Positions 493 to 64,000 of a stretch of DNA of 64,000 bases are shown piece by piece. Under the pieces are notes generated by a model that ran no database searches, was not told where the DNA came from, and saw only the letters and a list, made by a program, of their open reading frames with translations. The stretch is from assembly GCF_910592395.1 (NCBI RefSeq), contig NC_088314.1, forward strand, positions 248,001 through 312,000. Reading direction: 5' to 3'. This DNA comes from Lineus longissimus (Eukaryota; Nemertea; Pilidiophora; Heteronemertea; Lineidae). Both the position numbers and the translations under genes were made by a program. How positions within the stretch are numbered: the first letter of the stretch is position 1; every line of letters begins with the position of its first letter.

Positions 493-1164
493 TTTCATGC
501 TAAATGGAGATTTTATTCGCCTCTTATGCGGTATGCAAACGAGCGCGCAGCAATTGTGACAAGGTCGATCGCGCAGGTGGCAGAGTGATTGTCCGAAATA
601 GTTTCAAGTAATCGTATATTTCGATAGTTGTACAGATTTTTCTCAACATATCGTATTTATATACCTCAGTGATATAAAAGATTACCTTTGCAGTTGATTT
701 AACGTTTGAATGGCCTTTTTTTGAAGTTTTTAAAAATCGAGGTCAGCAGGGTCAGAGTCAATGAATGAATTGTTTTGCAAGACTCCGGCAGGGTCAAAAG
801 AAAAGTTGTTGGCGCCAATGATGTCGCAATATGGCTGATTTCCATCTCACCCGTGAGATTTGCTCTCGTCTCGTCATGTGCACGTTGAGGTTGCACTGAG
901 GTGCCATTACCACCAGCAGATAGCCAAATGCATCTAGTTTCTTTATTTGATGTGAAAACATGGGGTCATCTCGGCGTCCCCACTGTATAGTGCCACCTGA
1001 ACTGCTTCTTGAACCGTGCTCAATATGTACCGGCTACCACTCTCTCCATCATCACCGACGATATGTGCCGGTGCCGGTCATGCAAGGTCGTTTCAATGAA
1101 AAAGACGCACGCCACTGCCGTACCGGTACCTGAGAAAACTTGCCATTTTAGGCAGATTTGCGAT

Positions 1165-21928: not shown

Positions 21929-23373
21929 CCATGGTAAATAAGACAGAAGATGAACTCCACAATCATTTGTAGCAGAGTATTTACCAACAGACTACTGCTG
22001 ATTGATACTGCTGCTATTGTCTTCTAATTGTCCCAGTGATTGCAATTGGAAGCCTGTTTTGGGGTGAACGACTCCGCTTCTTTCTCTCCTTCATTGATTG
22101 AGAACTTTGTGTTCAGTGAACTTAGATCTTGATTGAGAACATTAGTAGGCATGGGACAACAGTTCTGGTAATCAGATCATCTGATAAGATCTGCAACAAA
22201 TTGTCACATTAATTAAATACAGCCATTGCCAGTATAGAAAGGCTAAAGGACATTCAAGTAACTGGCTGTGTGGATGAGACCAGGCGGCTTCTCCTTAAAG
22301 TGACACTTGATGTGCCAAATATAATTCTGTGATGTATTTTTTTAATGACTAGGCCAAACAATCATGGGATCTGTAAAGTGCAGATCACTACAGAGTATAA
22401 GTGTGTATTGAATGAAAGTGATATGTAATAATTTTGATAATTTGTTAATAAATGATTTATAAATGACTTGTGATGTCTTTCTTCTTGTCTTGCAGTGTGA
22501 ATGCATGTAGCATGGCATCGTGAAATGACTTGTAACAACGTGGTCAGTGGTCTTTCATTAGCACCTTTCCACTGGTTCTCTCACACTACACCTGCACCAC
22601 TATTGTGCAACCCAATATCGGCCAAGCTCCTAAGTCCATCTCATTTGGTTGGGGACCAAGGTGCTCTCCTCCCCTATTGGTTGTCTTCAGGTAACACTTG
22701 TCCTTCATACTTCACATCCCTAACTTGAAGGCACAGTTGGAGGAGAATGTCTATATGACTCGGCGCTGGCACGTTTCACAAACAACAAACAAGATAAGTT
22801 GATTGACAAATGTTTAATTACACCACTGTAATCAATTAAAATCTGCCACCAGTATCACATGAATATGGAACATCTCCACAAAATTTATGTGTCTGTCATA
22901 AGTCTTTGACACTTAATAAATATTTGTTTCTCCCCAAACCAATATATATACATCCCCACATTAACATCACAGAGCAAAAACTTTCCCAACCTATCTCGCC
23001 CACAAAAAGATACACCGCGCTTCACCCATGAACTAGACATGAAATACAACAAGTCATTAGGCTCGAGACAATAGACAGTCACAGAAGAGAATCCATTCCT
23101 GTCAAGTCCTTCTCAAATATAGATGGAAATCTAACTTCATCAACTTTTACCAAGTCGATAAGCATGATAAAAGATATGACACACATCAGATGAAATTTAC
23201 AGGAGAACCAACAAATATGGTCAGCAGGGCCAGATCCAAGGGAACTGACCTTTAATTCGGAATGGTAACACGACCAAGGAAAACTGTCCTAAATGATTCC
23301 TCAACCAATCCTTCAAGTAGACTTGACCTACATAGATTTTGTCGTGGACAATTTTGCCTGTGTATGCCTGCAC
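21929..23373. other. Convergent 3' UTRs of PHYH and TMBIM4
   Basis: No coding exon is supported. PHYH's 3' UTR probably runs to the AATAAA at 22448-22453. TMBIM4, from the other side, has only a weaker ATTAAA candidate (minus strand, 22813-22818). Confidence 0.6.
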
Positions 23374-25523
23374 CTATTTCTTGGCCGCATTGAGGATCCT
23401 CAAAATGTAGAGAAAGAGATTGATGATGTCGAGATAAAGGTTGACGGAGGCGGTCATGTATTCTTCAGGAGAGAGTCGATGCATCAGTAGATGGGTGTCA
23501 TAGATGATGAAGGCAGAGAAGATTACAGCACCGACCACAGCAATACCTAAATCCATCCATGCAGCTCGAAAGAAAATCTGAAAGAAAATGATGCTACATT
23601 CGAAATCTTGCAAACAGAGGAATGTATTTCTGAAATAAAACCAGTTCTTTCACTTTGAAATGTTGCATCTGACTGCACATAGGACACTCTTCTAACCACA
23701 CACATTGCTGTTACATATGACACAACACAAAGACAGAATCACCTCAGTGTGAAAGAAACACAGTTGCTTTTCTTCAGATTGTTTTTTCAACTCACCTGCA
23801 GGAACGAGACCATGATGAGCATCATGAGCAACACAATCAATCTGAAAAGAGAAGGACTAGAATAAGAATCTATATGTAAACAAGGAAGAATATATTGGCA
23901 ATGAGAGCCGCTGTTCATTCTTCACACCTTTAGGACGTCCAAGAAGGTGCCTACTATCCAACTATAAGGACATCTTGCTCTTCGCTGGTCATATGCCATA
24001 CCCATCAAGTAGATGTCATATGCCATACCCATCAAGTAGATGAAAAACTTACGTTGAACCCATTTTGCTGAAGTCTCTCTTGCTTTGGAAAGTGTAGAGA
24101 GTTAGTCCTAGTGTGACCGCAAACGTGATAAGTGCTGCCTCAATCACGATGAAGCCATCGTACATGGTCACTGAAACAAATAACAACAATCATCACCATA
24201 AAAACACAACATGTTTTGTTCATTTCAGACAAAATCTTCTTTTGTGATTTGAATAGATGGAGCCACTTAAAATGTAAACATTGCACCCAACCTACTTAAA
24301 TGTTCTGAGCAAAACACAGCTCTGTTTATTGTCATATTATACACTGTGAGTGAATATAAATGAACCGTGCTCATGAATACATAATTGAATTTTGATCAAC
24401 TCAACAGTTGCGTGAATATCAAACAGCTCAAGACATGTACAAATGTATATAGGATCCACAAGAATGTGCTTGTTATATCTATGGAAGGGAGTTTAGAAAA
24501 GACTGATTCTTCTAAGTAACTATAGTAAGAGAATTATCAGGCTTACCGACACATCCAATCAGAGAAGCTTCACATAATGTCTGAAAAGAAAGAAGAGACA
24601 GGATATCAAACTAACACACCTCGACCAAAGTCTCACAAAGTCTCACAAAGTTTCACAAGCCACACTCAAAAGAGACGTGATCATCTGACGACTATATACT
24701 TACAAAGAGGCCAAGTAATATGAAGTTGATGGGCGTCTGCTGAGCTTTGACGTGAAGGGCGATCAGGAACACGAAGCTGAGGATCATCACAACAAACAAC
24801 ATCCAAGGACTGCAAGCAAAAAGTGAGACATTAGTGCCTCAATTGATTTACACTCATGTCTTAGTCCGACATTACCAACCTAATCTTTTTCCTCTCTGTA
24901 AAGGTAAACTACTGCTCCCTACAACTCCTGCTTTAATGCAATCTGAATGCAATCTGACATGAAGAATTGATGAATTAGCCAATCTATCTAAGTCTGGTAA
25001 CTTACTTCTTTTTGTAGAACTGTTCCAGTGGTTCAAACTTAAAACACATGTATGCATACGCAGCAGTGATCAAGAGCTGGGTACAGAGAATGCCATACAC
25101 CTTCCTCAAGAAACCTGGAAATAGAACATTACATTGAAAACTATGAACGATGATTGTTGATAAGACGGGTTCAATTGTAACGTCGCCAATGATTTGATCA
25201 CAATTTTCATTCTTTTTCATACGTCACCAAGTTTGTTCCTGTTTTAGAATGTACTGACTCCATCTGTCAATGACTATCAACAATATTTCTCAACTCTGGG
25301 AGCCTTCCATTGTGGATGTGGGTCATACTGACTGGTTGTGCTGCCTGATGCTTCAGCTCTGCTGACCAATGAGCCAGTACGTACCCATGCGGATATAGAT
25401 ATGAGCAGACGCCACGTTGGAACCATACATAAAGTCATCGGTGATGCTCTCGTCTTTAGATGACTTCTCTGGTTCGTCCATGTTGATGATGGTCGGGTTC
25501 CCTTGGACATGTAGTGTTGCCAT
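23374..25523 (-). CDS. TMBIM4: Transmembrane BAX inhibitor motif protein 4 (lifeguard 4 / GAAP)
   Basis: Exons in transcription order: 25523-25385, 25114-25006, 24809-24704, 24580-24547, 24170-24053, 23841-23796, 23577-23374. They give 251 residues (human TMBIM4 has 238). It is a multi-pass membrane protein of the Bax-inhibitor-1 family; the vertebrate protein sits in Golgi/ER membranes, affects calcium release and opposes apoptosis. Evidence: the N-terminal acidic DDFMYGSNVASAHIYIRM, then FLRKVYGILCTQLL, several hydrophobic helices, LTLYTFQSKRDFSKMG, and the signature C-terminal helix with FIIYDTHLLMHRLSPEEY and LYLDIINLFLYILRIL ending in AAKK. Each junction has GT-AG ends and matching phase. 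The ATG at 25521-25523 begins a 46-residue first coding exon. It lies head to head with the KDM7 gene about 620 bp away. Confidence 0.95.
23988..24041. repeat. 27-bp tandem duplication in TMBIM4 intron
   Basis: gtcatatgccatacccatca followed by agtagat occurs twice, starting at 23988 and 24015, just downstream (on the minus strand) of a donor site. Confidence 0.85.
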
Positions 25524-26145
25524 GGTGAGCAATTTAGTAATACAGAATATTAGGCAGCACTGAAAATGAAAATAAGTTGCAACCTAATTGAATAAAGAAG
25601 GCCAGGTCAACTGGCAACCGTCGGAGGCTGAAGGCTGAAGAAAGTTTTGAATTAGATTATAGTTTTTCCAGCAATTATGAATGATGTGCTCATCTGTCCT
25701 ATAGCAGCCAAATGTTTCATCAGAATGAAAACAGATAGAGACAAGGGAAGCTGAAATAGAGGTGAAAAACTCAAATAAAAACAAAAGCGTTATTTTTGAG
25801 ACACCCTGATGCACATAAATGATATGACGACAGTGCAGAAAAATCTGGAAAAGGCACGACAAAAACACTGTTTTCAGACAAATTACACTCGATTAAAATG
25901 CTGTTCGAATGCATGAACTGAATAATAGGGATATACTAGAGCAACTAGTGTATTGTATTAGGCAATCATTACTTCGAGTTAAGAGTAAAATAGTGAGAAA
26001 TTCGAGATGAAAACACACCAAATGACAAAATTTCCAGATTTACCAACTTCCGCCTTCAGATTACGTCAATCTCGCTCAAGCCAGAATTTTCGGGAAATCA
26101 GAATTCGATCCGCTACCAACTTTGCGTTGCGCGAGTTTAGCTAAG
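25524..26145. promoter_or_regulatory. Shared divergent promoter region, TMBIM4 / KDM7
   Basis: About 620 bp separate the two start codons, which point away from each other. The right end has a CpG-rich stretch (tttgcgttgcgcgag), and the KDM7 start codon lies in aagATGGCGGA, a YY1-type initiator motif typical of TATA-less housekeeping promoters. A bidirectional promoter is inferred from the arrangement. Confidence 0.5.
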
Positions 26146-36998
<10,853 letters not shown>

Positions 36999-46291: not shown

Positions 46292-49200
46292 CCCAATGGA
46301 TTACATGAACACAGCAATATCACGTTTGGTTCTCCTCATTACATCTGTAAATCTGGTGAACAGCAACGGGATCTCTCCAACAGACTTTACGGTCTTACGC
46401 CAGCTGAGCCAACCGGATGTTTTCACTCACCTAGCTTGTAATGCTACAACATGTCTGGATAAGTTAGCTCTCCCATTTCAAGACTGTGAATGCCAGTGTC
46501 GGGAAGATGCGAGCACTTTTGATATCATGCAAATGGGATGCAGCCGGAATCTTACTGGTAAGTTGAAAAGTTATCATTGATTGTTGGTCAAGATGATTTT
46601 TGATTTTAGGTCTTGTGATTTTGGCAACCCTCTCAGTTACTCGAAACACGCACTGATTAACAGTGTGTGAGCCCACAGGGGAGGTCAAAATTATAAAAAA
46701 TGGTTTTGGTTCGGGAAATATTTTTTGGTTATGACCCTCCTGAGGCATTTTCTGGAGGTTATAATGGTTGAGTGGGCTCCTTAACTCCCGCTTTGAATGA
46801 GACTAATGTTTGGCATGAACATGATGAAATCAGGGGGAGTCCCAATGATGTCATTGAGAGGCCAGCATCCACTCCAGGGGGAGTCCCAATGATGTCATTG
46901 AGAGGCCAGCATCCACTCCAGGTGGAGTCCTGAATGATGTCATTGAGAGGCCAGCATCCACTCCAGGGGGAGTCCCAATGATGTCATTGAGAGGCCAGCA
47001 TCCACTCCAGGGGGAGTCCCAATGATGTCATTGAGAGGCCAGCATCCACTCCAGGGGGAGTCCCAATGATGTCATTGAGAGGCCAGTATCCACTCCAGGG
47101 GGAGTCCCAATGATGTCATTGAGAGGCCAGCATCCACTCCAGGGGGAGTCCCAATGATGTCATTGAGAGGCCAGCATCCACTCCAGGGGGAGTCCCAATG
47201 ATGTCATTGAGAGGCCAGCATCCACTCCAGGGGGAGTCCCAATGATGTCATTGAGAGGCCAGCATCCACTCCAGGGGGAGTCCCAATGATGTCATTGAGA
47301 GGCCAGTATCCACTCCAGGGGGAGTCCCAATGATGTCATTGAGAGGCCAGCATCCACTCCAGGGGGAGTCCCAATGATGTCATTGAGAGGCCAGCATCCA
47401 CTCCAGGGGGAGTCCTGAATGATGTCATTGAGAGGCCAGCATCCACTCCAGGGGGAGTCCCAATGATGTCATTGAGAGGCCAGCATCCACTCCAGGGATT
47501 GGTCAGATGACAGAGAACACATATAAACAGACTTTTCAACTGCTCATTTCAGCCATTATTGTGGACAGGACTTTATTCATGCCCGATATGTTTGCACCTA
47601 TTTCCTCCAATTGTCAAGTCTCAATCCTTTGACCCCCCCCTGATTGTCTAGCTAATCCTCAATCAGCAGTTCAATTCTTACCTCAAAACAAGCTTACAAA
47701 CACACTTTTGTTGTACAAGCTTTAGGCCCATTATTGTTCTGAGACCAATATGGTTCCCCCATTGTCTGGTCACTTTGAAGACAGCTTTCATGTATTTCAA
47801 CAATTCATTCCCGTTTTGTCAACATTGGTGTTCGCCTAGATGCTACAGGTCAAATGGCACATTTTTTTCATCTGAAAAGATTGTGGGGCATAGTTTTTGT
47901 ATAATCGTTATGAGTTTTTGCCTATTCAGACAATTCACACCTGAAAATGGATGTGGATGTTGCCCAACTTAACTTGTGCCATTCTTTAGACTGGGTGTCG
48001 GTTTCTGTCAGCTTCATCGTCTTACAGCACTGTTTGCTAAGATGAAAGCTTGGTCGGTGTTGGTAAAAACTTGTTGGATAAAATTTTTGAAGAAGGCCTA
48101 CAATTTCCCATGCCCTTATTCTAGAAATTATGTCAAGATCATCTCACTCTTTCTGAATTCTAATTATTCTTCCAAATTACCACCATTATAGTTGAATAGT
48201 CTAATCACAGACTATTGCACAAGTATTTTTTCTATCGGTCCATGTCATGCCTATGCAAAGACCAATCCTTGATCAATGTTTCCCTGTTAGTGTCTAGGTC
48301 TTGTCAAATAGTGAGAACCTGGTAATCTGGCTTGGACACTAGGTCACATTGGACATTGCAATGGTCACCTGGAAAGTTTTAATCATTGCCGTTTGTGACA
48401 ATTGTTGTTGCTGTAATAAACAGAAGGACAATTTGAGAAGTCAAGCTTGGCATGTGAATATGTATGAAACAACTCGAGCCATCCCCAGTTTGATTTTTGA
48501 GATGTTCTCGTGAGAATGAACAGCTCTTTATGTGATTGTCTACCTTGGCAAACATATGACTTGGTGGAGGGAACTGACAGCACATCAGCAAGCCCAGTCA
48601 TTGTCACATCAGTACATCACACTATTGCCCTTCAGTCACACAATGCGACAGGCCATGCAAGTCTCACTCAATAGCCAGTCTTGTGCTTGGGAGAGTTCAT
48701 AACTATTTCTTTTGTCAAACCTCAGTGAGGTCAGCCCTTCGAATAGTTTCTCACATGGTCAAGGGTTGACAATGAAACAGGTGAGCTCATGGGAGACCCC
48801 ATGTCAATTTCATTGCTTATCCCTAAGCTTGGCCCACCCTTGTAATAGTTTCAAATATAGGTCATGGACTAATGACATTGGTTGACAATACCTCTTCAAA
48901 TTGATCTCTTTCATTGTCCTTCAGTCAGCAGAGGGTGAAATGATGTTGTTATGTTCGACCATGATCACATATGGCTGATCCATGGCTGTGTACTCCATTC
49001 ACACCCATGTCACATTCCTGTATTGTCCTTGCACCAGTCAGATTCCCTGAAATCATCTCACAAAACAGTAATTCAGGAGGACTTTTCCTGAAAGTGTGTG
49101 GAACTTGTTTACTGAGAAGAGTTTGACATTCTCTCAAGGCGCTGGATGAGATAGTCTTGAAATGAGTGGAACGGATTTCTCCAGTTCTGCGCTGAGCGAC

Positions 49201-52200
49201 GCAGGCGATTGTGATCTGACGGATGACAAAGAAAACGTTGAATCTTCCCGGTGTGATGATACTGTTATGAGGCACAAGAGGCTTACTCCTTGTCTGAGTG
49301 TTGTCCAGAGTCTTGGTGATAGCGGGATATGTTTTGATGCATCGCAATTTCAGGATGAAACAGAAAAAGCTGTGAAGGAAGGAGGTGTTGAGAACAAGAA
49401 ATGTTATTCAGCAATTCGAAGTCCATCAGTCGATACAACGACATCAGTTGATACAACGACACAGCCTTCAAGTCCATCAGTTGATACAACGACATCAGTT
49501 GATACAATGACACAGCCTTCAAGTCCATCAGTTGATACAATGACACAGCCTTCAAGTCCATCAGTTGATACAATGACATCAGTTGATACAATGACACAGC
49601 CTTCAAGTCCATCAGTTGATACAACGACATCAGTTGATACAATGACACAGCCTTCAAGTCCATCAGTTGATACAATGACATCAGTTGATACAATGACACA
49701 GCCTTCAAGTCCATCAGTCGATACAACGACACAGCCTTCAAGTCCATCAGTCGATACAACGACACAGCCTTCAAGTCCAACGCAATACAAGAAGTCACCA
49801 TCACAATGTGATTCTGCCATTGGAAGGACACTGTTCTTCAGTGATTCTGATGGAGAAGAGATGACTTTATCTTTAAATAATGATTCTGAATGGGCAAGGA
49901 GTCATGCCGAAGCGCTGATGGACTGGTCTTTAAATCAGTCAGGAAACAGTCCATGTACAAGTGAAGATGTTCTTCATCTGTCTCTGAGTCATTCTGGGGG
50001 AGAGAGGAGCCAGTCTGAAGATGAGAGGTTGGAGTCTCCAAGTCCCACGCAAGAGGAGGATACTCAGTCATTCTTAAGCCCAACAGAAGAGGAGAGCACT
50101 CAGTTGTATATCAGTCTCTCCGAAGACGAGGAGATTGAGTCATTTTTCCCGATTCTCAGTACGTCTGAGGAGGAGGCTCCATTCATCAGTCGGTCTGCCC
50201 ATGAGAGGAGTCCACCAGATGGGAGAGAGAAAGATGTGACTTGCAGTAGGTTTCAGAAATACAAGGAACGACAGGCCTCGCGTGCATGGAATTTCTACAG
50301 GATTGTGCCGACATTGGACAATGGGACACGGCAGCAGTTCTTGCCGTGGGCCTACCCCTCATGGGTTGAAACCTCAACCGATGATGGTGATTCCTCTGAA
50401 AGAGATGAATACGACCTCCAGCCTTCACCCCCACGTCAACATCAAGGTCCACTGCAGGATGAACTGATCTTTTCCTGGGAGGAGGAGGAAAAACGTTATG
50501 TTCACCCAAAGAAGATATTTCGACAGTTAAAAACTGACATTGAACCACCGAGAGAAGGACCTAGAAGCTGCGAGCATGAACAACCATGTTCTTGGGAACT
50601 TGGTGGCTTACTTCATCGACCTATCAGGACATTAGGCAGGAAATGGTGGCAAGAAACATCAGCGCCAAACTTCACGGTGCCCAAAAAAAGAAGACAGGCA
50701 TGGCGCACAGAACGTCCTCCAAATATTGCATTTGCTAAAAGAAATCTTGCATCTTTGGTGATTAATCCTGTGTACCTCTGGACGAGCTCAGAAGATGACG
50801 TCTCTGATGACGATGGGCGCCCCCTGCCATCGTATCAAGATAAAACTTGTCAGGCTTCAAAGGTTGTGCGTTCCACGGAGCATCCTCCCATTGTTACATT
50901 TGCTAAAAGGTGGACGAGAGAGAGTTCAGGTGACAACTCTACTGATGGAAGCCCACTGCCCTCTTGGAGGATTGACCAGACTTCTAAGGAAGGAGTTGAT
51001 CTGAATGATAGTATTGGCCACACTGCACCCCCAGCATTGGATGATGTTATGTTAGATAGTGTTGTGAATGTTGATGAAGGTATTGGCCGATGTAATACTT
51101 ATAGAAGTGAGGAGAGTGTGTTGGGGAGTAGTTTAAGTATCAGTCGCACTGCAGAATTGAGCGAGCCTGAACAGAGTGAGGTCACCAGAATGGAGTTTAA
51201 CGAATTGCGATCTTCAACCGTGAAAGGACATGCTACACCACGTAAAGACAGTGGTATTGGGCTCGATTTGACCTACCTCTCCCCGGTCTCCGATGGTACT
51301 CAAGTGGAGGTATCCGGACTCATTGGAAAGGTCTTTACAGAGAATGTTGAAGATTTGACTCATCAAGGTGATGGGAATCATAGAGCTGACGATTCTGTGA
51401 GCGGATCATTGGGAGAACAAGCTTTGCTTTCAAACCAGGATAGTACTGATGCAGAAATTGCCAGAATCATCGCAGAAGATTTTGCCGAGATTTTTGGCGA
51501 GTGATGTGAATTTTGAACTAGAGGTGAATGATTTTGGACTAGTTCTGGTCAAAGTAACATCCCTCGACCCATTTGCTTAACTATAGTTGTCATGGAAATA
51601 TGACTATGGATTTACTTTTCTTTCTCTTTGTGTTTGAACTGTCGGTGCGTGGACTGAGAAATGAAGGGAGTAGATCTCTTTGCTGCTTTTAAATCTGGAT
51701 TAACTGACAACCAGGATTATAGCTTAATATGGTTGTCCAGGAAAGTATCGACTCTAAAGTTAGAGAATTAGTTTTGTGAAGGAGAATCCTTTCATGGTAG
51801 CTTCATATTCAGATAGGATGTGTTTGTTAGCTAATGAGTAGTTTGAGTTGTCGAAATCAGGAAAGCTGAGAGAACAAGATTGTTCTATTTGGCGAGAGTC
51901 TGTTGACCATTTTCAGTTCTATGTTGCCAAAGACAGAAAAGAAATATTTGTGAGCTGGAAAATCATTCAGCGGTGAAACTTCTGGTTTAAGGCAAAATGC
52001 TTTTTTAGGCAAATTATTTTCTCTAATGTCATTCATCGTGTGGACTGAGCAAGCAGTCTATCATTTGATCAAATCTGCTGGTTTCCAGAACACTTATCGA
52101 GAGTTCATTGAGGACCTGTGAGGCCAGCTGCTGTAGAAGAATCACTGTTTCAAGTGACCTTATAGTTACTGCTGTTCATGTCCAAAAGAGAAAACATTAA

Positions 52201-55200
52201 ACATTGTATAGAACAATTTTTGTTATCTTTTCAAACGATCTTGCCACTTAATAGTTGAAAAGGAATACTTTGTGCTGTGATGAGTTCAGTATAACTATAA
52301 GCATCCTCTACCACTCTAAATCTGACCAATCCAATTCCATATCTTTTCAGCTGGTCAGAGTGTATGGTTCGGCTCCTCTCCATCAAACTCCATCTCGGCC
52401 GTACTCCTCCCGTTCAAAGGTCAAGTCATTCATCCACAGACAGAGCTTTACACAAATTGTAAGTTTGCTTGTCTCAGTTGAATGTCTACCTGGTCTTGAG
52501 AAACCCTAGTCACTGTTTTACTTGAATTGTCATGTCAGGGTGGTCGTGATGAGGACGTCTTAGCACCTCCTGTCCCCGGCCTTCAGGCGCTATCAGATAA
52601 GACCAGCTTCTATTCTTCATCGTCTCCTCAAATGTCTGCCCAAAGAGGCTTTACCTCCAGGAACTGAGCATAGTCCTGTGGACTTGTAAGGGCTTGGTCT
52701 TTCATGCCCATCTTTTCCATTCACACTGCAAGCCTAGACTGTCCTGTGCTTCTGTTCTCATCATCATCTGTTCATTTCTCTTAGTGAATGGAGGAGTTAT
52801 GGAACCGTTGTCGAAGTACCACCCCTGTCATATCAGGTCAACTTCACGCCAGACCTTGGAAGGATGGCTGCCATGTGCCGATGGAGAAACTGGGTTCTAC
52901 ATTTCGTTGGAAACCTCACAGTTATTATTAAAGGTGAGCTGAGGGTTCGTGGCTCATTATGAATCATGGCAGATGAGCCGTTTGTTCGCCTCTGATAAAT
53001 CAAAATAGAAAAACTTTGTCCATTTAAAGGTGACCAAGATGGAGGATCCAAGTGCAGAGACCATGGCCTGGCCTGGGGTGCTACAGCCTGTTGTAAAATG
53101 GGTGATCCAAGTGCAGAGACCATGGCCTGACCTGGGGTGCTATAGCCTGTTGTATCCCATACTTATGATTAACAACTTGTCACTGTTATCAAATGCTCAG
53201 AAGAGAACATTTTCAACCTTCAACTTCAAGTCAACTTTTCTTCGAAATGTCAGCATACTGTCGGCAGTTTCCTCTTTTGGCTGATGACAGTGCATCCGTG
53301 TTCCTCTTATCATGGCCCCCTTTAGGTTGTCTGGTTCACTAATTCAATGTTGCTCATTCTCGTGCAGTGGAACGACTCAATGGACGCTGCCAAAGACTTC
53401 ATGATGGGCAAGCTGCTGTGGATGACACTGGAGTGTCCTGGTCTGCCTGCTGATGCACACGTCAGGTTCAAGATAGTCGGAAGTCAAAGTGTCATGAGTG
53501 TGATGCTGGGAGACCAACAGATTGAAAGTAAGTTGAGTTGAGGTTGTAAACAACCTTGATGTTCAATCTTTTGTATAAAATAGTGCTGCAAACTCTGAGA
53601 GAGGCCGTCACAATGATCATGGTGGTTGTGTCTGTGTTGGGAAGTGTTCCCAGTCCAATCAGGAAAACATGACAGCTCCTGACCTGTTTCACAGTGCTGC
53701 TATATCCTTAGAGTGTTTGATGCTCGCGTCATCACTGTCTACGTTCTCTTTCAGATCTTGGGTTGGCTCCAACATCAAACAACACCAATACCTCCCTTCC
53801 TCTCACACCACTACCAAAACAAGATGGCGACAATGAGGTCATACTCATCGTCACTTTGTCAGTAACGAGTGCCGTGGTCGTTCTAGCAGTCACTGTAGTC
53901 CTGATTACCCGCTACATCATGCAGCTGAGAGTGATCAAGGAGCATGAGCGCGCAAAACACTTGGAGGGATTTGTGGAGCCAGAGACTATGGTAAGACACT
54001 CATTGATCCCTGTCTTCTTGTATTTGATTGGCCCTCCAGCCGCCTATGATGGTGACTTGGTATAACTGGAACAGGCCAACCATCGCTTGGCCCATAGAAA
54101 TCACTGTTGATTTGATTTTGAATGAAATGATAGGTTTTCTTGATGAGGAGGTGTATTATTTCTGAACAGTTCATTTGTTTTATTTTCCAGACTAATCCAG
54201 TACAAGAATCTGGGAGTCTTCCTGAAGTTCCTTTGGCAGTCAGCCAACCCTATGATGGGGAAATAACTGGCCCTGAGTCAAGTTCAATTCATAAACAGAA
54301 ACATATTTCAAGTCTTAAACGGCACTCGCTCAAAAGTCTCGGATCAAAAAAGCTGAAGAGACAAACTAGTGTTCCACCAGGTGATGACTCGTACCAGCAA
54401 AACTGGCTTCATGTCAAACAAGCGCATAAAAATACAATATCCCTGCCGCCAAGCGCAGTTGAATACTGGAAGTCTAATCCGTATATTTCGGAGGAGCCGC
54501 ATGGTCATAATCAAGCAATGCGAACAATACGCAGCCTCATTCTGAGAGCAAAAGACAAAGTGCGAGGACTGTCGTCGTTACAGCCAATATCAGAGGAAGA
54601 GGAAGCTCCAAGTGTGATGAGTGGATCTAATCTCAGTATTGATTCGGTCTTATTTTCCATGACTCCGGGAGGGAGTGTTTCTAGTGATTCACGCGGCAAA
54701 GGGAACCGTGGTTTTGTGAATAACGGTTACAGTGATGAGGAGATGTTTTATCATATCCCAGTGCAGTCTCGGGAGCCTGATTGGGGCTCTCTTGATGAGT
54801 ACCTAGATGATAATTTGGAAGGGGTGGAATTCGGTGACGCCATTCTTGGCTATGATGTTAACTCGGATATTGTACCAGTGACCGAAATTGATGACGTTGA
54901 TACAGATGAGGGGATTAGCCAAAGTTTTGGCAGTTCTGAAACCAAAATTCACTTCATGGAAGGAATAGCAAAAGAGGATGTACCAGGTGGTGCTGTGATA
55001 TTATTGAAACAAGCACGATTTAGTGAAAATGACCCAGTGTTTTATGTTGCAGATGACAATATGCAAAACGTGGATAATTCTGATGGTCTAATTCATGAGG
55101 ATATTTCACAGGAGTCGATTAGTTACCAAAGTGATACAGACAATCAGGTTGATGTGGATGGGCCACCTCTGCCTACTACACCGCCTCCAGCAATATCTAG

Positions 55201-56479
55201 TCAGACAAGTTCTCCCCCAATGACTCTCTCCCATATCCCAATACCTTCACCACTACCTCTAATAACTGGTCATCCACTTCCTCCCCCTGCATCTATCACA
55301 GGCAAGCATATACCACCACCTCCCCCACTGCCGAGTCATAGTCTCTCTCCATCACTTAAAGTAGTGTCTCTCCCATCCCCTCCAACTCCAGTTATTTTAT
55401 ACAATACCCCACCACCACCCCCTCCACCTGCACTCTCACCCAATAGTCCACTTTCACCATCCAAGCCTCTAAAACGTATGGCCCCACAGCCCCCACCTGC
55501 AGTCTTGATGGCCCCACAGCCCCTGCCTCCAGTCTTGATGGCCCCACAGGCCCCGCCTCCAGTCTCGATGGCCCCACAGCCCCCGCCTCCAGTCTCGATG
55601 GCCCCACAGGTCCCGCCTCCAGTCTCGATGGCCCCACAGGCCCCGCCTCCAGTCCTGATGGCCCCACAGGCCCCGCCTCCAGTCTCGATGGCCCCACAGG
55701 CCGCGCCTCCAGTCTCGATGGCCCCACAGGCCCCGCCTCCAGTCTCGATGGCCCCACAGGCCCCGCCTCCAGTCTCGATGGCCCCACAGGCCCCGCCTCC
55801 AGTCTCGATGGCCCCACAGCCCCCACCTCCAGTCTTGATGGCCCCACAGGCCCTGCCTCCAGTCCCAAGTGATCGCTCCGATTCAGGCATGCATTCAGAC
55901 TCGAGTTCTTTATCCTCTGATTCTGCGTTAGCAAACTCAACCCGTTCGGCTGGTATGCTGTCAGTCAAAACTACCAAATCAAGAGAATCTGGTATTGCCC
56001 CTGAACCCAAACCAGATTATGTCGAAATTGTAACTAAAGTACCACCCCCAGACTATCGGCATACAATAGAAATGAAGGGGGATATTCTGACAGTGACAAG
56101 AGAACCGAAAAAAGTCGTTCTGAGGAATTTGCAGAATCGGAACGCTGTGAAATTCTGGGATGAAATGGGTTATCCATGTCCCAACAATGACAAGGAACGC
56201 ACAATCTCCCTACAAAAGGAACGCAAGAGAAACAGACTACAGAAAATGTATTTTAATACTCCGCATAAAAAACAAATGAGTAGTGAATATAATCGTAAGA
56301 AGGTTGGATTAGGGCGTAATCCTAGTCAATTGCAATCAGAGAAGCGGACTTGGGCAAATAGTATGGGGCGAGGGCGTAGTCTTCCTGGGAAAGGTTCGTC
56401 ACCTAAAGACAGGAATCTTTGCTTAAAAACAGACAATGATTTGTCTTTATTGAGGTTAGGTGGAGTTTGGGAGGTGTAA
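46275..56479 (+). CDS. Unrecognised single-pass type I membrane protein with proline-rich cytoplasmic tail
   Basis: Exons: 46275-46557, 52351-52458, 52785-52933, 53368-53527, 53755-53990, 54191-56479. They give 1074 residues; all junctions are GT-AG and in phase. A signal peptide is likely (residues about 15-31, hydrophobic [12 protein letters not shown]). The ectodomain (about 32-261) has a six-cysteine cluster at 55, 60, 71, 73, 75 and 89 (DCECQC), and several N-glycosylation sequons. One transmembrane helix spans about 262-287, followed by basic residues. The cytoplasmic tail of about 785 residues is disordered, with polyproline runs, 13 tandem decapeptides (about 742-871), a PPDY WW-type ligand and a more conserved-looking basic end ([13 protein letters not shown]). 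The design suggests a receptor or adhesion molecule binding SH3, EVH1 or WW partners; that is inference. I do not recognise the family. AATAAA lies at 56786-56791. Intron 1 (5.8 kb) contains a separate 780-codon ORF. Confidence 0.75.
46833..47494. repeat. 44-bp minisatellite, 15 copies, in intron 1
   Basis: The unit (gggggagtcccaatgatgtc ... ccactcca) repeats 15 times in 662 bp. Two copies read gtcctgaatg instead of gtcccaatg, adding one base each; otherwise copies differ at one or two positions (such as agtatc for agcatc). Confidence 0.95.
47495..49161. other. Intron 1 sequence / upstream of nested ORF
   Basis: AT-rich unique sequence with no supported exon. If the 780-codon ORF is a gene of its own, its promoter and any untranslated exon should be in this stretch; no TATA box or CpG cluster stands out. 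Confidence 0.4.
49162..51504 (+). CDS. Hypothetical 780-residue Ser/Asp/Glu-rich protein, intronless, nested in an intron
   Basis: One uninterrupted frame runs from ATG to TGA, with an in-frame TGA just upstream of the ATG (about 49147), so the start is well bounded. I do not recognise it. Residues about 89-206 are a repeat of [12 protein letters not shown] and QPSSP units encoded by a minisatellite. The rest is acidic and serine-rich, with many SEED/SEDE-like CK2-type clusters and little hydrophobic content, so it is probably disordered. A partial internal duplication is visible ([10 protein letters not shown]...[11 protein letters not shown] and [10 protein letters not shown]...[12 protein letters not shown]). 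DSGI-type motifs occur near both ends (DSGICFD, DSGIGLD), and the C-terminus is helical-looking ([17 protein letters not shown]). It has no signal peptide or membrane helix. It lies wholly within intron 1 of the membrane-protein gene on the same strand; ATTAAA at about 52196 could end its mRNA. Confidence 0.6.
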   Translation: MSGTDFSSSALSDAGDCDLTDDKENVESSRCDDTVMRHKRLTPCLSVVQSLGDSGICFDASQFQDETEKAVKEGGVENKKCYSAIRSPSVDTTTSVDTTTQPSSPSVDTTTSVDTMTQPSSPSVDTMTQPSSPSVDTMTSVDTMTQPSSPSVDTTTSVDTMTQPSSPSVDTMTSVDTMTQPSSPSVDTTTQPSSPSVDTTTQPSSPTQYKKSPSQCDSAIGRTLFFSDSDGEEMTLSLNNDSEWARSHAEALMDWSLNQSGNSPCTSEDVLHLSLSHSGGERSQSEDERLESPSPTQEEDTQSFLSPTEEESTQLYISLSEDEEIESFFPILSTSEEEAPFISRSAHERSPPDGREKDVTCSRFQKYKERQASRAWNFYRIVPTLDNGTRQQFLPWAYPSWVETSTDDGDSSERDEYDLQPSPPRQHQGPLQDELIFSWEEEEKRYVHPKKIFRQLKTDIEPPREGPRSCEHEQPCSWELGGLLHRPIRTLGRKWWQETSAPNFTVPKKRRQAWRTERPPNIAFAKRNLASLVINPVYLWTSSEDDVSDDDGRPLPSYQDKTCQASKVVRSTEHPPIVTFAKRWTRESSGDNSTDGSPLPSWRIDQTSKEGVDLNDSIGHTAPPALDDVMLDSVVNVDEGIGRCNTYRSEESVLGSSLSISRTAELSEPEQSEVTRMEFNELRSSTVKGHATPRKDSGIGLDLTYLSPVSDGTQVEVSGLIGKVFTENVEDLTHQGDGNHRADDSVSGSLGEQALLSNQDSTDAEIARIIAEDFAEIFGE
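49426..49779. repeat. Coding minisatellite (33-bp and 15-bp units)
   Basis: A 33-bp unit encoding [11 protein letters not shown] alternates with a 15-bp shortened unit (SVDTT/M). Both are multiples of three, so copy-number changes keep the frame. The variants aca/acg and aac/aat are shuffled between copies. Confidence 0.95.
51505..52350. other. 3' flank of nested ORF / end of intron 1
   Basis: Noncoding; includes an ATTAAA candidate polyadenylation signal at about 52196-52201 and the branch/acceptor region (atatcttttcag) of membrane-protein exon 2. Confidence 0.45.
53045..53154. repeat. 59-bp tandem duplication in intron 3
   Basis: gatccaagtgcagagaccat ... agcctgttgta occurs at 53045 and again at 53104, with two or three substitutions between the copies. 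Confidence 0.85.
55478..55867. repeat. 30-bp coding minisatellite, 13 copies
   Basis: Thirteen tandem copies of a 30-bp unit encode variants of [11 protein letters not shown] in the cytoplasmic tail of the membrane protein. Variation is mostly at unit positions 5-7 (QPPPP, QAPPP, QVPPP, QALPP) and the last codon. The frame is kept on both strands, which explains long antisense open frames here. Confidence 0.97.
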
Positions 56480-58290
56480 TCGGAGTTTCTCGCTGGCTAC
56501 CACGCAATAGGCCCGGATTCGATCCGGCCGGGGATAACCCAGGATTGTATTTCTGGATGAACCGGCGTGGCTTTCAACATTAACACCGCAAAATTAGTCT
56601 TATTTTGGCGTTGATCTTTACGAAGTGAGTCTGAGCAATCAGACCCTATCAGTAATCTTGCCAAACCCATATAATGTTTTGTTTATTGTTCCTTATTCCT
56701 ATATGTCATCGTACTTGTATATAACATTCACCTCATACCTGAATAGCCATTGTGTTACAATTCAAATCTTATATGTCATGGAGTAAATAAACTTTGGTCA
56801 TTTTACAAAAGAGTATTTGCTTCTGTTTGTTTGAGAAAAGTTTGTTGATTCAGTAATTGACAAAGAGTCCAACCCTGCATGGAGATGTACAGTTCCAGTC
56901 TAGCTCTGACTGACCTAGAGACCTCTGTCTGATTGCCCTGGAGACATCCATCAAGTGGTTTTTAGCAGACGTTTCATTAGATTGCCTTCGTCTCTACCTG
57001 AGCCAGAGACGTATCTTAGAATTGCCTGCCCTGAAGACAAACTGGCAATCTGCAATCTCGTTAGGTCTCGTTGTACTTGTGGCAGCATCTGCAATCTCAT
57101 CAGGTCAGGTTGTGACAGCATTTCCTGTCTATCAGGTCTGGTTGTGACAGCATTTCCTGTCTATCAGGTCTGGTTGTGGCAGCATATGCTGTATTATCAG
57201 GTCTGGTTGTGACAGCATGTTATGGTATGGTTGTTGCAGTATCTGCTGTCTCTTCAGGTCTGGTGTTCTGATTTCATGCAATCCCTTTATGTAAATGATC
57301 AGGTATTCACCATGTGAAAATGAGACACATTTTTCCTAAGGGTGGAGACAAGGTCCACCCTGTAGAAACATGGTGCACCTCGTTGGGAGAGTACACATGA
57401 TCTCGATCAGACAGAGTGCGCATAGTGAAGGGGCATGGCACATCCAGCAAAGGCTTGGTACACTCTCTGGCAACATGGCGAGCTATGAAGGGAGGGCACA
57501 TCCAGAAGAAATATGGTGCACTACTGTCTCATTGGCCGAAAGTCATTTCTGCAGGTAACAATAGGGCCTATAGAGCGACGGTAAAATAAACAGGCCCGTT
57601 GGGGTGGAAAACAGAAATGTCCTCGTATTCACTTTCGCTCTGATGTCTTGTCTAGCAGGCAGATGCTGCCATCTGAGCTAAGAGATAGAACTACGCGTTG
57701 ACTCAAAATTAAAAATCACCAATCAAAGGGTGGAAATTTTCCCCCGTGTTAGGGGGAAACGGGGGACGCGTTATTCCATGAACCCCGTGATCTCGGGATC
57801 TTGCCAAATTGGTTTCGTCGACAGTACCGCAAAACACTATTGAGGCTTCAGCTGGTCCACATGACTTACCTCGAACTGTCTTCGGCTGGACAACCTCTCC
57901 ACTATTGAGTGGGTGGATGGGGATAATTCAAATCGTTTTTAAGTGGTCAGTGATGAGCCCTATGACTTAGGCCCGGTCGCGGATCTCTTCATTTCACCGT
58001 AATAACTACAGTGAAACAGTGAAATGAAGACAATAAAATAATGGGAATCCCCAATTAGCTATTGAACTCGGCATAACTGAAGGACGTGACATGAACAGTC
58101 AAGTGTTTGATGACCCAAGGATGTGACTGATCCAATCAAATGACTGCTGATTTCCCGGTTTTGAATAGTTCAGACTAAATCTCCAATTGAAAGCTGCTAT
58201 ACTCAAAATTTTAAATTATTATTCACGCGACTGTCAAAAGAACCCAACTGTCATAACTAAACGTGATCCAAGTTGTCTGCTAGTAATAAA
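56480..58290. other. 3' UTR and spacer before the cytokine-like gene
   Basis: The membrane-protein 3' UTR probably ends after the AATAAA at 56786-56791. A degenerate 32-36-bp repeat fills about 57056-57262. No coding gene is supported. At 57732-57745 ggaaattttccccc is a weak kappaB-like match about 560 bp before the next TATA box. Confidence 0.5.
57056..57262. repeat. Degenerate tandem repeat, about 32-36 bp unit
   Basis: About six imperfect copies of a unit like tcaggtctggttgtgacagc plus atttcctgtcta. The two central copies are nearly identical and the outer ones decayed. Confidence 0.8.
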
Positions 58291-58298
58291 ATCAAACA

Positions 58299-58306
58299 TA
58301 TATAAA
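58299..58306 (+). promoter_or_regulatory. TATA box of the cytokine-like gene
   Basis: tatataaa is a consensus TATA box 102 bp before the ATG at 58408, which puts transcription start near 58330 and leaves a leader of about 75 nt. TATA promoters are usual for inducible genes. The leader contains ttctcaagaa (about 58365-58374), a TTCN4GAA STAT-type motif. Confidence 0.55.
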
Positions 58307-58407
58307 CCCTGATTACGGACAAGCCTGACATCAGTTTCACTAAACGACACTGAAAAAGAAGCTTTTCTCAAGAACGTCATAATTTTCAGTTCAATCTCTA
58401 ATACATA

Positions 58408-59710
58408 ATGCCTTCTTTACTTGACTTGGGGCGAGATCAGTCGCTCAAACCAGACTGGAGGACTATCAACCAGTGTCACAACACATCGAGGCAGTTGGCG
58501 AGAGATGTTCTCTATTTGATGAAGCGTTATGTAAGTAACCCGATTTGTTTTGTGTATAGTCTCGTATGCAGTCCATTTCGTCATTCTGATCGTCCTTCTC
58601 GATCGATGTACCGGTGTGACAGCGGATATAGTCCCCCTGGAGTCATAGTCCGGTAGCATTGTATTTGACCAATTAAGCAGCATGATCTCTTGTACCGCTA
58701 ACCCTAACCAAAACATTTAGCAATGCGGGCTATTGTTACACGGACTATCAGCCCTAGGACTACTATCCCTTGCACACCTGGTGACAGGACGAGGCCGGTC
58801 CACTGCGGGTCTGTCGTGTTGTCAGTCCGAATGAGACATCGAAGGCAGTCACAGGTGTTTTCAGAAGTGACGCCGATCTCTTCATTCGACAAAACAAGAT
58901 TTCGTCGTATTGTATATCCGTCTCTATAAAACAGTTCTCTGATTCGTCAATTCATTCTTTCAGGAAGAGGTAATAGAACATCATGACTATATCAACTACT
59001 TGAAGACACAGCACATTTTACCCGCTAGAGACGAAATACCGTCGGTCAACTCAAAAGCTCAGGTAGGCACAAGTTTCTGTCTGCTGAATGTATCACTGCA
59101 GTGATCTCGGACCGGAGCCATTCTTGCGACTTAATAGCAGTAGGTTCCATTCCGAGATATGTGAGCTAATCTTTAAAGTCGTGACGGGTCCTGACCTCAT
59201 AACACGAGGCAGAAGAGGACATAGTTCACCTGATTAAATACACCGTACTTGCCTGTTATTGGCGACAAACTGATTTCAAGTCTGTCATCAATACGGTATC
59301 TTCTAATCTAGTTACATCCATAAGCAATCGGAACATCTAATCTCTCCTCCACTGTTCACTTCCAGATCAAAACAGCGTTGATATCAATGTATTACGGCAT
59401 GTGGGAGGCAAGGGAGTTCCTCGCCGTCGTCGTAACAGACGACATACAAGACCAAGGCGGACGCTTCAACACTGATTATGCTATCCTGACTTCACTGATC
59501 TCCGACTTGGTGATGTCTCTCAAAAACGTGCTGATCTCTCTCGACCTGATCCCAGATGAAGTGGACACCTCCTCCGCTGTTGTGACGGGAGGCGACTATA
59601 ACTCAAGAGACTATAAGGTTCTGAACGACATCTGCAAAAGGACACGGCAATACGCCAGGGTGCTGAGGGAGGTCTTAGCGTTGAAACCTCATAATGAATC
59701 CAGTCATTGA
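58408..59710 (+). CDS. Candidate CNTF/CLCF1/cardiotrophin-like four-helix cytokine
   Basis: Exons: 58408-58530, 58964-59062, 59366-59710; 188 residues, all junctions GT-AG, phase 0. The predicted layout is four long amphipathic helices: A about 18-46, B about 71-102, C about 108-136, D about 153-180. From memory of human CNTF (200 residues) the shared features are a Cys then LAR in helix A (CHNTSRQLARDV), an intron in phase 0 after the Tyr ending the first coding exon (41 codons here, 38 in CNTF), a DQ after helix B, LIP after helix C (IP in CNTF), then GG followed by an aromatic and a helix D with KVLNDI against KVLQEL. As in CNTF, no classical signal peptide is seen. Two cysteines only (23, 164). 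Family members signal through gp130/LIFR-type receptors and JAK-STAT. Assignment rests on pattern, not a search; another four-helix protein is possible. AATAAA at 59828-59833. Confidence 0.6.
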
Positions 59711-60547
59711 CGCCGCGGAGACAGGTGGTCTTCAGTTCAGGTTTCTATACGATGCCGGTGAAACAGAAAATAGTACCCTCTCGGAATTCGTGTCATAATA
59801 CCTTTTGTCAAACCCATAATCTGTTAGAATAAAATACGATCGTACACTTCTTTCCAGGGGACATTTTCGACTGCTACACCGACGGCGTTTTAAGGCTCGT
59901 TCTGAAGCTTTTTGTCTTGACAAAACTTAATCACTATGTTTTCTTGTGAAAGCACCAACAGAACGTGAAGTTATCACATTAATTTGTATCGCATGTCGAT
60001 GATTGCTTGTAGGCTACGTTAGCTTATTATATTATTATATTATCATATTAGCTTATTATATTATTATATTATATTATAGACTGACTATAGGCAGGAGCTA
60101 GAGGGTAATTGGCCATCTATTCCTTGTACAAGCGCGAATATGAGTTTCGTCGTACTAAGATAGGGTAGCTGCTGCCTGTAGTGTCCCTTTAAATTTGGGC
60201 CTAGTCTGATCATATCAATCGCAGGAGAGAGATGTCACCCAATTTCACTTATGTGGGACATATTGCTTACACCAAATACGGTGGGGTTGATGCGATACGT
60301 GTATTGGAAAATATGTAATCAAATTATTAAAGTGTATAATATGATCTCAAGTGTTCATTCCATTTTGTAAGCAGGGATTGATGACAATGAACAGAAGGAT
60401 GCTCCAAAGCCAAGACGTCCTCATGACCGTTTCAAACATGCTCCATGTTTCCGTGATGTACTTGTGAATTGTCTCCAACAACGATAAATTGAATCATAAA
60501 AGAGAAAAATAAAAATAGATATGGTCGGAAAAAATACGAAAAAGGTA
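59711..60547. other. 3' UTR and spacer
   Basis: The cytokine-like 3' UTR ends soon after the AATAAA at 59828-59833; I see no AU-rich ATTTA destabilising elements in it. The rest is AT-rich spacer with a (TTA)n-like microsatellite at about 60023-60077. Confidence 0.5.
60023..60077. repeat. TTA/TA-rich microsatellite
   Basis: Repeated ttattatattattatatt words with small interruptions. Confidence 0.85.
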
Positions 60548-60666
60548 TGTCAGAAGTGGGATTCGAACCCACGCCCACATTCGTGGACCAGAATACTCTA
60601 CTGACTCATTGCAGAGTAAGGTTTGAACCTTGAGTCTGGCGCCTTAGACCGCTCGGCCATCCTGAC
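60548..60666 (-). tRNA. tRNA-Leu (CAA) with 35-nt intron
   Basis: On the minus strand the gene starts GTCAGGATGGCCGAGCGGTC with a perfect A box, has anticodon CAA (stem CCAGA/TCTGG), a long class II variable arm, the B box GGTTCGAATCC and the acceptor 3' strand TTCTGAC plus discriminator A, giving a fully paired 7-bp acceptor. An intron of about 35 nt (60628-60594) follows position 37, the usual place and typical of animal tRNA-Leu(CAA). A T5 Pol III terminator follows within about 10 nt (60539-60543). Confidence 0.95.
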
Positions 60667-61423
60667 ACGACGAATGAGTGAAGAAATTTTATCTATAAAA
60701 ATTAAGTGTTTTGGGACCTATCAAAACCTTTGTTTTAAGGATCTGTTATCACAAATAAGGGTTAAATAAAGGCAAAAAGGCAGTTATGCAGGATTAGTCA
60801 GGTCAGGCCGGCTCTTACGGTTCTATAAAACCCATTTTCATAACTTGACGTCACTTCCGCCACAATGGCAGCCTCCATGTAAAAAAAATCGGATGAAATT
60901 ATTCGGGAAAAACACTATATTATCTATTATTGCGTCCCGATCAAATTCCGATGGTGGCTGATGACAAGGAAAAACATATTGGTCAATTATAAAGTCTACT
61001 TTAATTTATGGTATTGTGATATTTTGCTGGAAAATGACTTTTCTTTCAACTATGTAAATTTACACACACTGCCACTTATACCTATGGTATGCACTATTTT
61101 TCGCCAGGCCCCGAACTCAAACACAACATGGCCATGGGTGTCGATGCTCACTGCATGCACAGCATTCAATATTAGTGATTGCTGGAGCCCCAACCTGAAG
61201 TTAGTGCTCTATTCCCTCTGTCATGACTCAAAGACAAAGTCACAAGTCACAGCCGGGGCGCCAAAGCCAAAATTGATAGTATAGGCTATAGTAAGCAGTA
61301 GGAGTTGTAGTAAATTGCAACGGCTCCTAAAAACACCCTGGCCCTTGAAGTTGTAAGTGAAACTAACAATGTAACTGTCGTTCCTTTTCACAGCATGAAA
61401 ATCAATATCCCACAATTAACAGG
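60667..61423. other. Spacer, promoter and first intron of TIMMDC1
   Basis: No coding exon is supported. A 5-codon frame at 60865 (MAASM, then stop) cannot be spliced in frame to the next exon and is probably a short upstream ORF. Confidence 0.45.
60846..60860 (+). promoter_or_regulatory. CRE + ETS composite site, probable TIMMDC1 promoter
   Basis: tgacgtca (60846-60853) is a perfect CRE for CREB/ATF factors and overlaps cacttccgc (60852-60860), an ETS site on the other strand. Just downstream is acaatggcag, a YY1-like word. This is a typical TATA-less housekeeping promoter about 560 bp before the TIMMDC1 start exon, whose splice acceptor (ttttcacag, about 61393) implies an untranslated first exon. 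Confidence 0.55.
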
Positions 61424-64000
61424 ATGGATCCAGACTCTTTGCTGAAATTTGTTGGTAACCATGGAAACCATAGCATATTTGGTGGGTGGAGATCCATAGG
61501 AACCAATGGTGGCCTTACAGGTTCAAGATTCAGAAGACGATTGAGGTTTCCTGTTGTTGAAGCACAAGAAGCAAGTAAACAAACTGTTGAAAGGAAGACT
61601 TCATTTGTCGAGGCTGGCATAAATAAAGCACATGATGAAGAGACTCTGGTTCCATCTCAAAGTATGAAGAAAGTTTTACAAAACAATCCAACAGACTATA
61701 GAGCTTTGATGGAGACAAGTGCCAATCTTGTATCGAAGGAGGAGATCTTAGATTATATCAACAAGGAGACTGGAAGAGAGAGGCTTCAGCAACTCTTTGG
61801 GAAGGAGTAAGTCGCTTAAGCATTTCCTCCTGGATGTCACTTGTGGTCTCTTCACTATGTTCTCAACAGTGTCCGCGGTACATTTCTTCAACAATGCACC
61901 CGTAAAATATGAGTGACTTTAATTTTGCCAATTAAAGCCTGAACTATGTGCCCATTTTATCAATTGACTTTTTGAAATAATTTAATTTTCTTATTCATTT
62001 TCTAGTTGTTTTTTTTCAGTGTTGAAGGTCGGAGATCTCAAGAAATGTACATGGTGATCGGAGGCATTCTACAGGCTGGGTTGTTCGGTGCAGTGGTGGC
62101 TGGCTTTATTGGTGCCAGAGTTGCTAAAGAGAGATATGTGAAAAAACACTACGCAGCACAATTTGAGACCAAGTTCTTTGGGATAGTGAGTGTGCTACTC
62201 TTCTCAGTTACACAGTCAATAGAGTGTGCATTGAAACAACCAGTTTGGGAGCATCAGTTTAAAAAGGAGATGGATATGTTTCCAGTTTGTTGAAGAACCG
62301 TGTGATTTCTGGCCACGAGATAGAATTTTTCCACCTCTGTAGTAGGAGACTGAAACAGCTGTCAAGGAATTGGCTTCTAATATATCTTATTTTACAGAAA
62401 ATGTTTGATTTTAGTCTAATTCTCGGTGTAAAATATGAACACAGAATCAACATAGTGACCTCCCTCTTACTGTTTACCAATTGTCACCCTCAAGTTACTC
62501 AATAAAAGGACTCAACAGGTAATAGCTTGTCTTCCAGTCGTGACCGACTGTTTCACATGCTCACATTATTTCCAGCGTGGTCATCTCGATGCTATGGTCA
62601 TTGGAGCTATAGGCTTTGGTGCCAAGTGGGCCCTGAGGTTAAGTGTCTTCACAGGCACTTTTTTGTGAGTATAACTTTACTTTCTGTGAGTGTTGTAATC
62701 AAAAATGAATTCAGTACTATTCCATCTAATGAAGCTAAACCAGCTGGCTGCTGTTTCAGTGTAACTTGATGGTGTCATTGGATGTATACCCTTACTTTAT
62801 CATACAGTATAGTAATTGTGCTGCTGAAACTGTCATTTTGATGGAGTCCTGGCCACTATTCAAACATAGTTTATTTCTCATTGATCCTAGGGTGTTCAAT
62901 GTGAGTGACTGACAGCTTGTTCAATTGTCTATTTCAGATTAATATCTCAATCAGTTTCTGTGTATAGGAATAAAACGGGTGTCGTAGAATACACATTAGC
63001 AGGGGGTGAGTACTTCGACTGCTAAGAAACAGTGAACTACTGACTAAGTTGGATTTGTATCTGTAATGACCGCAGTTGTCCTGCGTAATGGAAGCGTCTT
63101 GGTCGTGTGTGGTTAGATTTGGCTCTGGCATCAGAACATGTCATTAAGATTCACTGCAATCTCCAGGGCCACTGTTCTCGGCCTGGATGAAGACCACCGT
63201 CTAATACAACGGAGAAAATGATCTCACAGTGGTGTGATATCAATATTGGGTCCTTGATATGGCATCAACATTAGCATTCGATCCTTTTTTGGATTCATCA
63301 CAGAACAGTTTAGATTTATTATAAAATGGGTGCAACCATCTGTGTGTAACTCATCTGAAATTGATCATTTCTCCTTCAGGTATGACTGGAGCACTGTTCA
63401 GAATGAACATGGGTCTGCGGGGAATGTTTGCGGCTGGCATTCTAGGAACTACATTTGGGTAAGTCAGATTATTAAGTATTTGAAGACAAAACACATGCTT
63501 GGTTATCATGATCATATTGGATTGGATTGTGGTATAGACCAGACTTGGTTCCATCCACGAGTTCTTTGACAAGGTTCCAGTTGATGTCCACCAGGTGATG
63601 GATTTCCTTATGCCTTCCATTCACCGGCTCTTCACAAACCATATAACCAGTACTTCTTGTTTAGGATAAAGAGATAACATGTTCCTGACCTTGAGGTATA
63701 AAACTGAAGCCACCTTTGTGTTTCAGGACGATTGCTGGTTTATTGGCGTGGGGCACATCAGAAGCCACTGGAGAGTCTCAACAGGCAAAACACTATCAAT
63801 ATGTCCATGAACAACTCGTAGAAAAAAAGTAAGTCAAAGATTCTTTCTTATCCAATCAGGTGTTCAAAGGCACCGTACTGTTTCGGGATTCATTTTTCTC
63901 ACCACTGACTTGATGACTCAGATTTCAGGGTCAGCTGGTTTATGATTTATAAAATGAATAGTACCACATCTGTTTTCAAGTGATGGGATTCCAAATTTTG
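61424..64000 (+). CDS. TIMMDC1: TIMMDC1, mitochondrial complex I assembly factor (3' partial)
   Basis: Exons: 61424-61806, 62020-62185, 62576-62664, 62938-63005, 63380-63458, 63727-63828, then beyond the window; 295 residues are visible. It belongs to the Tim17/22/23 domain group and in vertebrates is an inner-membrane protein needed to assemble the proximal part of the complex I membrane arm. Landmarks seen: RERLQQLFGKD before the domain, a glycine-rich first helix (YMVIGGILQAGLFGAVVAGF), ALRLSVFTGTF and LISQSVSVYRNK, then AGGMTGALFRMNMGLRGM and GILGTTFGTIAGLLAWG. All phases match. The start is the first in-frame ATG after the acceptor. The N-terminal part (about 127 residues before FGKD) is longer than in human and includes an Arg-rich SRFRRRLRFPV that could help mitochondrial import. 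The protein is cut at the window edge after VEKK. Confidence 0.93.

Follow-up and report, generated by a model that had tools for sequence, protein, structure and literature searches.

We analysed a window of 64,000 nucleotides from chromosome 7 of the nemertean Lineus longissimus (RefSeq assembly GCF_910592395.1, contig NC_088314.1, positions 248,001 to 312,000, counted here from position 1) and found a candidate gene of three exons on the plus strand, whose spliced product comprises 188 amino acids (aa). The gene is apparently real, unannotated and single copy. Tentatively, we favour the reading that it encodes a very divergent ligand resembling the class I helical cytokines. Membership of the CNTF/CLCF1 family, which the first-pass annotation had proposed, is not shown. 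Sequence comparison does not prove kinship to the vertebrate cytokine CNTF; the gene is not a demonstrated member of this signal family but a lead, open to testing, on how the family originated.

The start codon at 58408 is the first ATG 3' of a TATA box at 58299..58305, which lies 109 bases 5' of it. Exon 1 (58408..58530, residues 1-41) encodes most of the putative helix A and ends with Tyr41; exon 2 (58964..59062, residues 42-74) would encode the end of helix A and the A-B loop; and exon 3 (59366..59710, residues 75-188) includes the stop codon. The two introns (58531..58963, 433 bases; 59063..59365, 303 bases) are both of phase 0 with GT-AG borders, and an AATAAA poly(A) signal follows at 59828..59833, 118 bases 3' of the stop. 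Thus, the TATA-driven gene of three exons and 188 residues that had been described from the sequence holds in its exons, introns and TATA box. The spliced protein has a mass of 21.7 kDa and an isoelectric point of 5.9, with Cys at positions 23 and 164 and Trp at positions 17 and 87. Neither a hydrophobic N terminus nor a signal peptide was found in the 188 aa.

A cytokine-like product is suggested by the arrangement of its helices. AlphaFold2 folding covered the part encoded by exon 3 (mean predicted local distance difference test scores of 63.7 and 63.9) and predicted helix B at residues 76-103 (59369..59452), helix C at residues 107-132 (59462..59539) past a B-C turn of three residues, and helix D at residues 155-180 (59606..59683) past a C-D loop of 22 residues. 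Of the four-helix layout that had been claimed, three helices (B, C and D) are thus predicted along with both connecting loops, whereas helix A was placed by amphipathicity alone. The resulting plan of helix A, a long loop, B, a short turn, C, a long crossing loop and D is plausibly like that of a long-chain class I helical cytokine. When the models were compared to known structures, CNTF was the first match in one VIA list (for the first model) and in one Foldseek list, and a CLCF1 structure came seventh in the VIA list of the first model. The expected likeness in fold thus places CNTF among the best matches; however, no fold match had a significant E-value, CNTF was tied with ferritins in another list, and it was not among the 50 matches listed in one further comparison. 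LIF structures were not among the 50 matches listed in two comparisons, which excludes nothing. The first-pass annotation had named a missing profile match and a different fold as signs against its claim; the profile match is indeed missing, whereas a different fold was not seen in the exon-3 part that was folded. Of the seven Pro and Gly residues, one lies inside the predicted helices of exon 3 (p = 0.003); we do not count this placement as evidence, since the structure model that supplied the helices already takes Pro and Gly into account.

The gene furthermore resembles CNTF in the position of an intron. Tyr41 of the worm protein aligns on Tyr38 of CNTF, and the first phase-0 intron of the worm gene directly follows Tyr41, in agreement with the earlier claim of an intron after a Tyr at nearly the same place. 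To place the CNTF intron, we used 11 partial CNTF fragments that were picked from 107 database matches. Ten of these have an in-frame Gln codon ahead of a similarity that starts at residue 39 or 40, and one starts at residue 39. Since a Gln codon is what an acceptor CAG would give, the CNTF intron would lie after Tyr38 in phase 0, as it does after Tyr41 in the worm. A phase-0 intron past the helix-A Tyr, which can be taken as an informal trait of the CNTF group, is thus present in the worm gene.

If the product is a helical ligand, the gene would be expressed, helix A would pack in the encoded protein, and the leaderless protein would be released without a signal peptide, as CNTF is. It would then bind a type I cytokine receptor, for which CRLF3 is the candidate in the genome, and STAT would be a downstream component of the signalling. 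A STAT gene is present on contig C13. A piece of human gp130 gave 25 matches in the genome, and among the 15 of these loci that were fetched, one (C1:50362-50535) has WSXWS in the register of gp130. The exons adjoining this locus match the solved structure of CRLF3 (6rpx, E 3e-15); the CRLF3 gene lies on the minus strand of contig C1 at about 52,800-48,400, about 50 kb from the contig end, and has WSPWS in a domain of fn3 type. By eye, the other 14 fetched matches resemble fn3 repeats of titin and tenascin type; those on contig C15 were set aside as fn3 arrays of titin or twitchin type and one locus (L017) as tenascin or DSCAM type. The suggestion of a gp130- or LIFR-like receptor with WSXWS thus led to CRLF3 only. 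No gp130-like receptor was recognised among the 15 of 25 matches by this insensitive search, and the ten unfetched matches include one that spans two gp130 domains with two stops. Profiles PF01110 and PF09240 had no match in the worm genome, a result that is uninformative as they gave no signal in control genomes either. The range of CRLF3 among animals extends from placozoa to mammals, it mediates the protection of locust neurons by human Epo and thrombopoietin, and vertebrate ligands serve as tools (PMC12409108); for these reasons, CRLF3 is a sensible first receptor to consider. The sections of PMC12409108 used here name no invertebrate ligand of CRLF3.

The main rival reading, which is also quite possible, is that the gene encodes an orphan, lineage-specific helical protein that is unrelated to cytokines and probably has an intracellular role. 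Its B-C-D plan would then look CNTF-like because such a plan is common in helical bundles. This explanation has to be reconciled with the first place of CNTF in one VIA and one Foldseek list and with an intron position of CNTF type. In addition, the putative extra helix stands ahead of the hairpin; cytokines have this order, whereas in ferritins the extra helix follows the hairpin. Judged by the usual hallmarks, the protein is no typical member of either the ferritins or the pectin methylesterase inhibitors, as the sole ExxH, the iron motif of ferritins, lies in the C-terminal tail and only two Cys are present.

We consider it unlikely that there is no working gene and that an open frame, decayed or arisen by chance, happens to carry splice and promoter signals. 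In simulated Markov sequences with local dinucleotide statistics, where splice sites had to equal or surpass the real ones by simple counts, none of 600 sequences reached 188 codons or more at a length of 1.7 kb, and 1% of 300 did so at 4.4 kb; the same program finds a best path of 191 codons in the real segment and of 99 codons on its reverse strand. As a single strand was simulated and the 64-kb window gives more tries, this result is support, short of proof. Furthermore, the amphipathic windows of the spliced protein exceed those of shuffles (p = 0.0004, 5000 shuffles), and the TATA box and poly(A) signal are plausibly placed. For a chance frame speaks that the exon-3 frame by itself is ordinary in amphipathicity (p = 0.036, rank 6 among 51 long frames) and that codon usage does not distinguish the frame when stops are excluded. 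Codon usage was discarded as evidence since it was favourable only with stops penalised and not without stops. Taken together, the candidate looks like a real gene and more than a chance frame, which these features of the sequence support but do not prove.

The searches for relatives bear on the same question, and the frame is known from one genome only. A Pfam scan of the 188-aa protein found no family at E<=10, so that the proposed profile search, PF01110 included, came back empty, and neither the sequences in the PDB nor 5.8 billion proteins gave a match up to E 10. The latter search is restricted to proteins that have short words in common with the query and are 103-329 aa long (0.55-1.75 times its length), in a database that includes vertebrate CNTFs and one or more NCBI proteins from Lineus longissimus. 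The lack of a match in this range of lengths, although the worm has at least one protein in the database, fits a frame that is not a gene; it also suggests that the gene is unannotated at about such a size. In the whole genome, the search returned the three exons themselves and one match at E 2.98. Possible paralogues in the window were weak matches only (E 0.10 or more), and none in the 50 kb downstream of the window was convincing (E 0.70 or more). Thus, so far as the genome search reveals, the gene is apparently single copy.

When comparing the protein to human CNTF, CLCF1, CTF1 and LIF, we found no local alignment that was better than those of shuffles. Global alignment with BLOSUM45, which is tolerant, gave p-values of 0.01 against plain and 0.03 against pattern-preserving shuffles for CNTF; with BLOSUM62, these were 0.03 and 0.12. 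By the BLOSUM45 measure, the two values were 0.03 and 0.04 for LIF, 0.05 (0.054, borderline) and 0.13 for CTF1, and 0.14 and 0.35, which is not significant, for CLCF1. As a yardstick, the accepted relatives CLCF1 and LIF reach 0.011 and 0.016 with each other. The global signal toward CNTF is suggestive at most. A CNTF profile of 14 sequences, built from human CNTF and 13 sequences chosen among the 107 database matches, scored the worm protein at -1.2 bits. Of 2000 shuffles each, 821 of the pattern-preserving and 591 of the plain kind attained this score, and a profile-profile comparison with CNTF yielded nothing beyond an 18-column match that is due to chance. Among the individual similarities to CNTF that had been listed, IP, GG and KVL are in register in the global alignments, whereas LAR is out of register and the Cys aligns only with a gap; as a set, they were not confirmed above chance.

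The residues that contact receptors also differ. The sections of PMC10022904 used here describe F152 and K155 (FXXK, at the N-terminal end of helix D) and W64 as receptor anchors of CNTF, a site-1 Trp with which the A-B loop ends (W64 in CNTF, W94 in CLCF1), and a helix-D position that is occupied by Trp in IL-6, IL-11 and IL-27. At the start of helix D, where CNTF has FXXK, the worm protein has the different motif Y152-N-S-R155 (59597..59608); FXXK is absent from the whole protein, and the A-B loop has no Trp. An aromatic residue there is compatible with the class without being proof of anything. We find no match in Pfam, no signal with the CNTF profile, no FXXK and no A-B-loop Trp, and the claim of a CNTF/CLCF1-type family member is not borne out. 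That the gene is orthologous in the strict sense to vertebrate CNTF/CLCF1 and its product acts via gp130- and LIFR-like receptors is very improbable: the intron after Tyr38/Tyr41, the top fold matches to CNTF and CLCF1 and Y152xxR155 at the place of FXXK would fit, but an aromatic-x-x-basic motif arises there in 6.5% of shuffles, the expected sequence signals are missing, a gp130-like receptor went unrecognised in an insensitive and incomplete search, and IL-6 family cytokines are reported only from vertebrates in the consulted sections of a 2026 survey (PMC13203501). These sections suggest other ligands for the invertebrate receptors and do not name Nemertea among the groups screened.

Returning to a divergent helical ligand, its most far-reaching form, which we regard as improbable, is a protostome class I helical cytokine of common ancestry with the CNTF/LIF group, with intron and fold kept and sequence eroded, that would be the natural ligand of CRLF3 or of an unrecognised gp130-like receptor feeding STAT. 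If this were true, a CNTF-type ligand would be older than the protostome-deuterostome split. Receptors of the pathway and parts of JAK-STAT have been reported outside vertebrates, and a gene for a helical ligand in a ribbon worm whose genome also has CRLF3 and STAT would make both ligand gaps directly testable.

Several other features were observed in the window. Neighbouring genes in 20977-35383 and 61427-63462 encode a PhyH dioxygenase, a minus-strand protein of Bax1-I type, a JmjC protein that resembles KDM7/PHF8, and TIMMDC1. The adjoining TIMMDC1, once its exons were joined, shows 97% identity to the NCBI protein of Lineus longissimus, and the host, which had been taken for an invertebrate, is indeed one, as nemerteans are protostomes. 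At 699-18241, there are 16 head-to-tail, nearly identical units with one 88-aa frame on the minus strand, mostly 1,164 bases apart and without Rfam or tRNA matches inside the array. By eye, an array of related frames lies on contig C1 at about 53,000-61,500, beside the CRLF3 gene; the repeat is thus dispersed and satellite-like. Likewise, the stretch at about 56919-57570, upstream of the candidate gene, resembles by eye frames on C1 at about 63,000-63,640 and is thus probably a dispersed repeat. Two large frames at 49150-51504 and 54134-56479 contain in-frame tandem repeats (for one of the two, period 30 bases, 12.9 copies) and have no Pfam match. ARAGORN missed a tRNA gene that carries a long insertion (60548-60666, minus strand) and that Rfam found (RF00005, 47.9 bits).

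Lastly, we compared the worm gene to known systems. With CNTF (PF01110), it shares a similar length (188 versus 200 aa), the lack of a recognisable signal peptide, the phase-0 intron after a helix-A Tyr, the predicted B-C-D arrangement and the top fold match in two lists. It differs from CNTF in lacking profile and local similarity, in having YNSR for FXXK and no A-B-loop Trp, and in a second intron before helix B, whereas CNTF has a single intron. CLCF1 appears among the fold matches (VIA rank 7) but has no significant similarity in sequence (p = 0.14), LIF shows weak global similarity (p = 0.03) and cardiotrophin-1 (CTF1) is borderline (p = 0.054). Unlike the leaderless worm protein, both CLCF1 and LIF are synthesised with a signal peptide. 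The four-helix bundles of ferritin and Dps differ in the place of the putative extra helix, and the worm protein has no ExxH outside its C-terminal tail. As no Pfam family matched at E<=10, there is also no match to the family of Drosophila Unpaired, provided that Pfam holds one. Like Unpaired, the worm protein would be a helical ligand for signalling of JAK-STAT type in an invertebrate.
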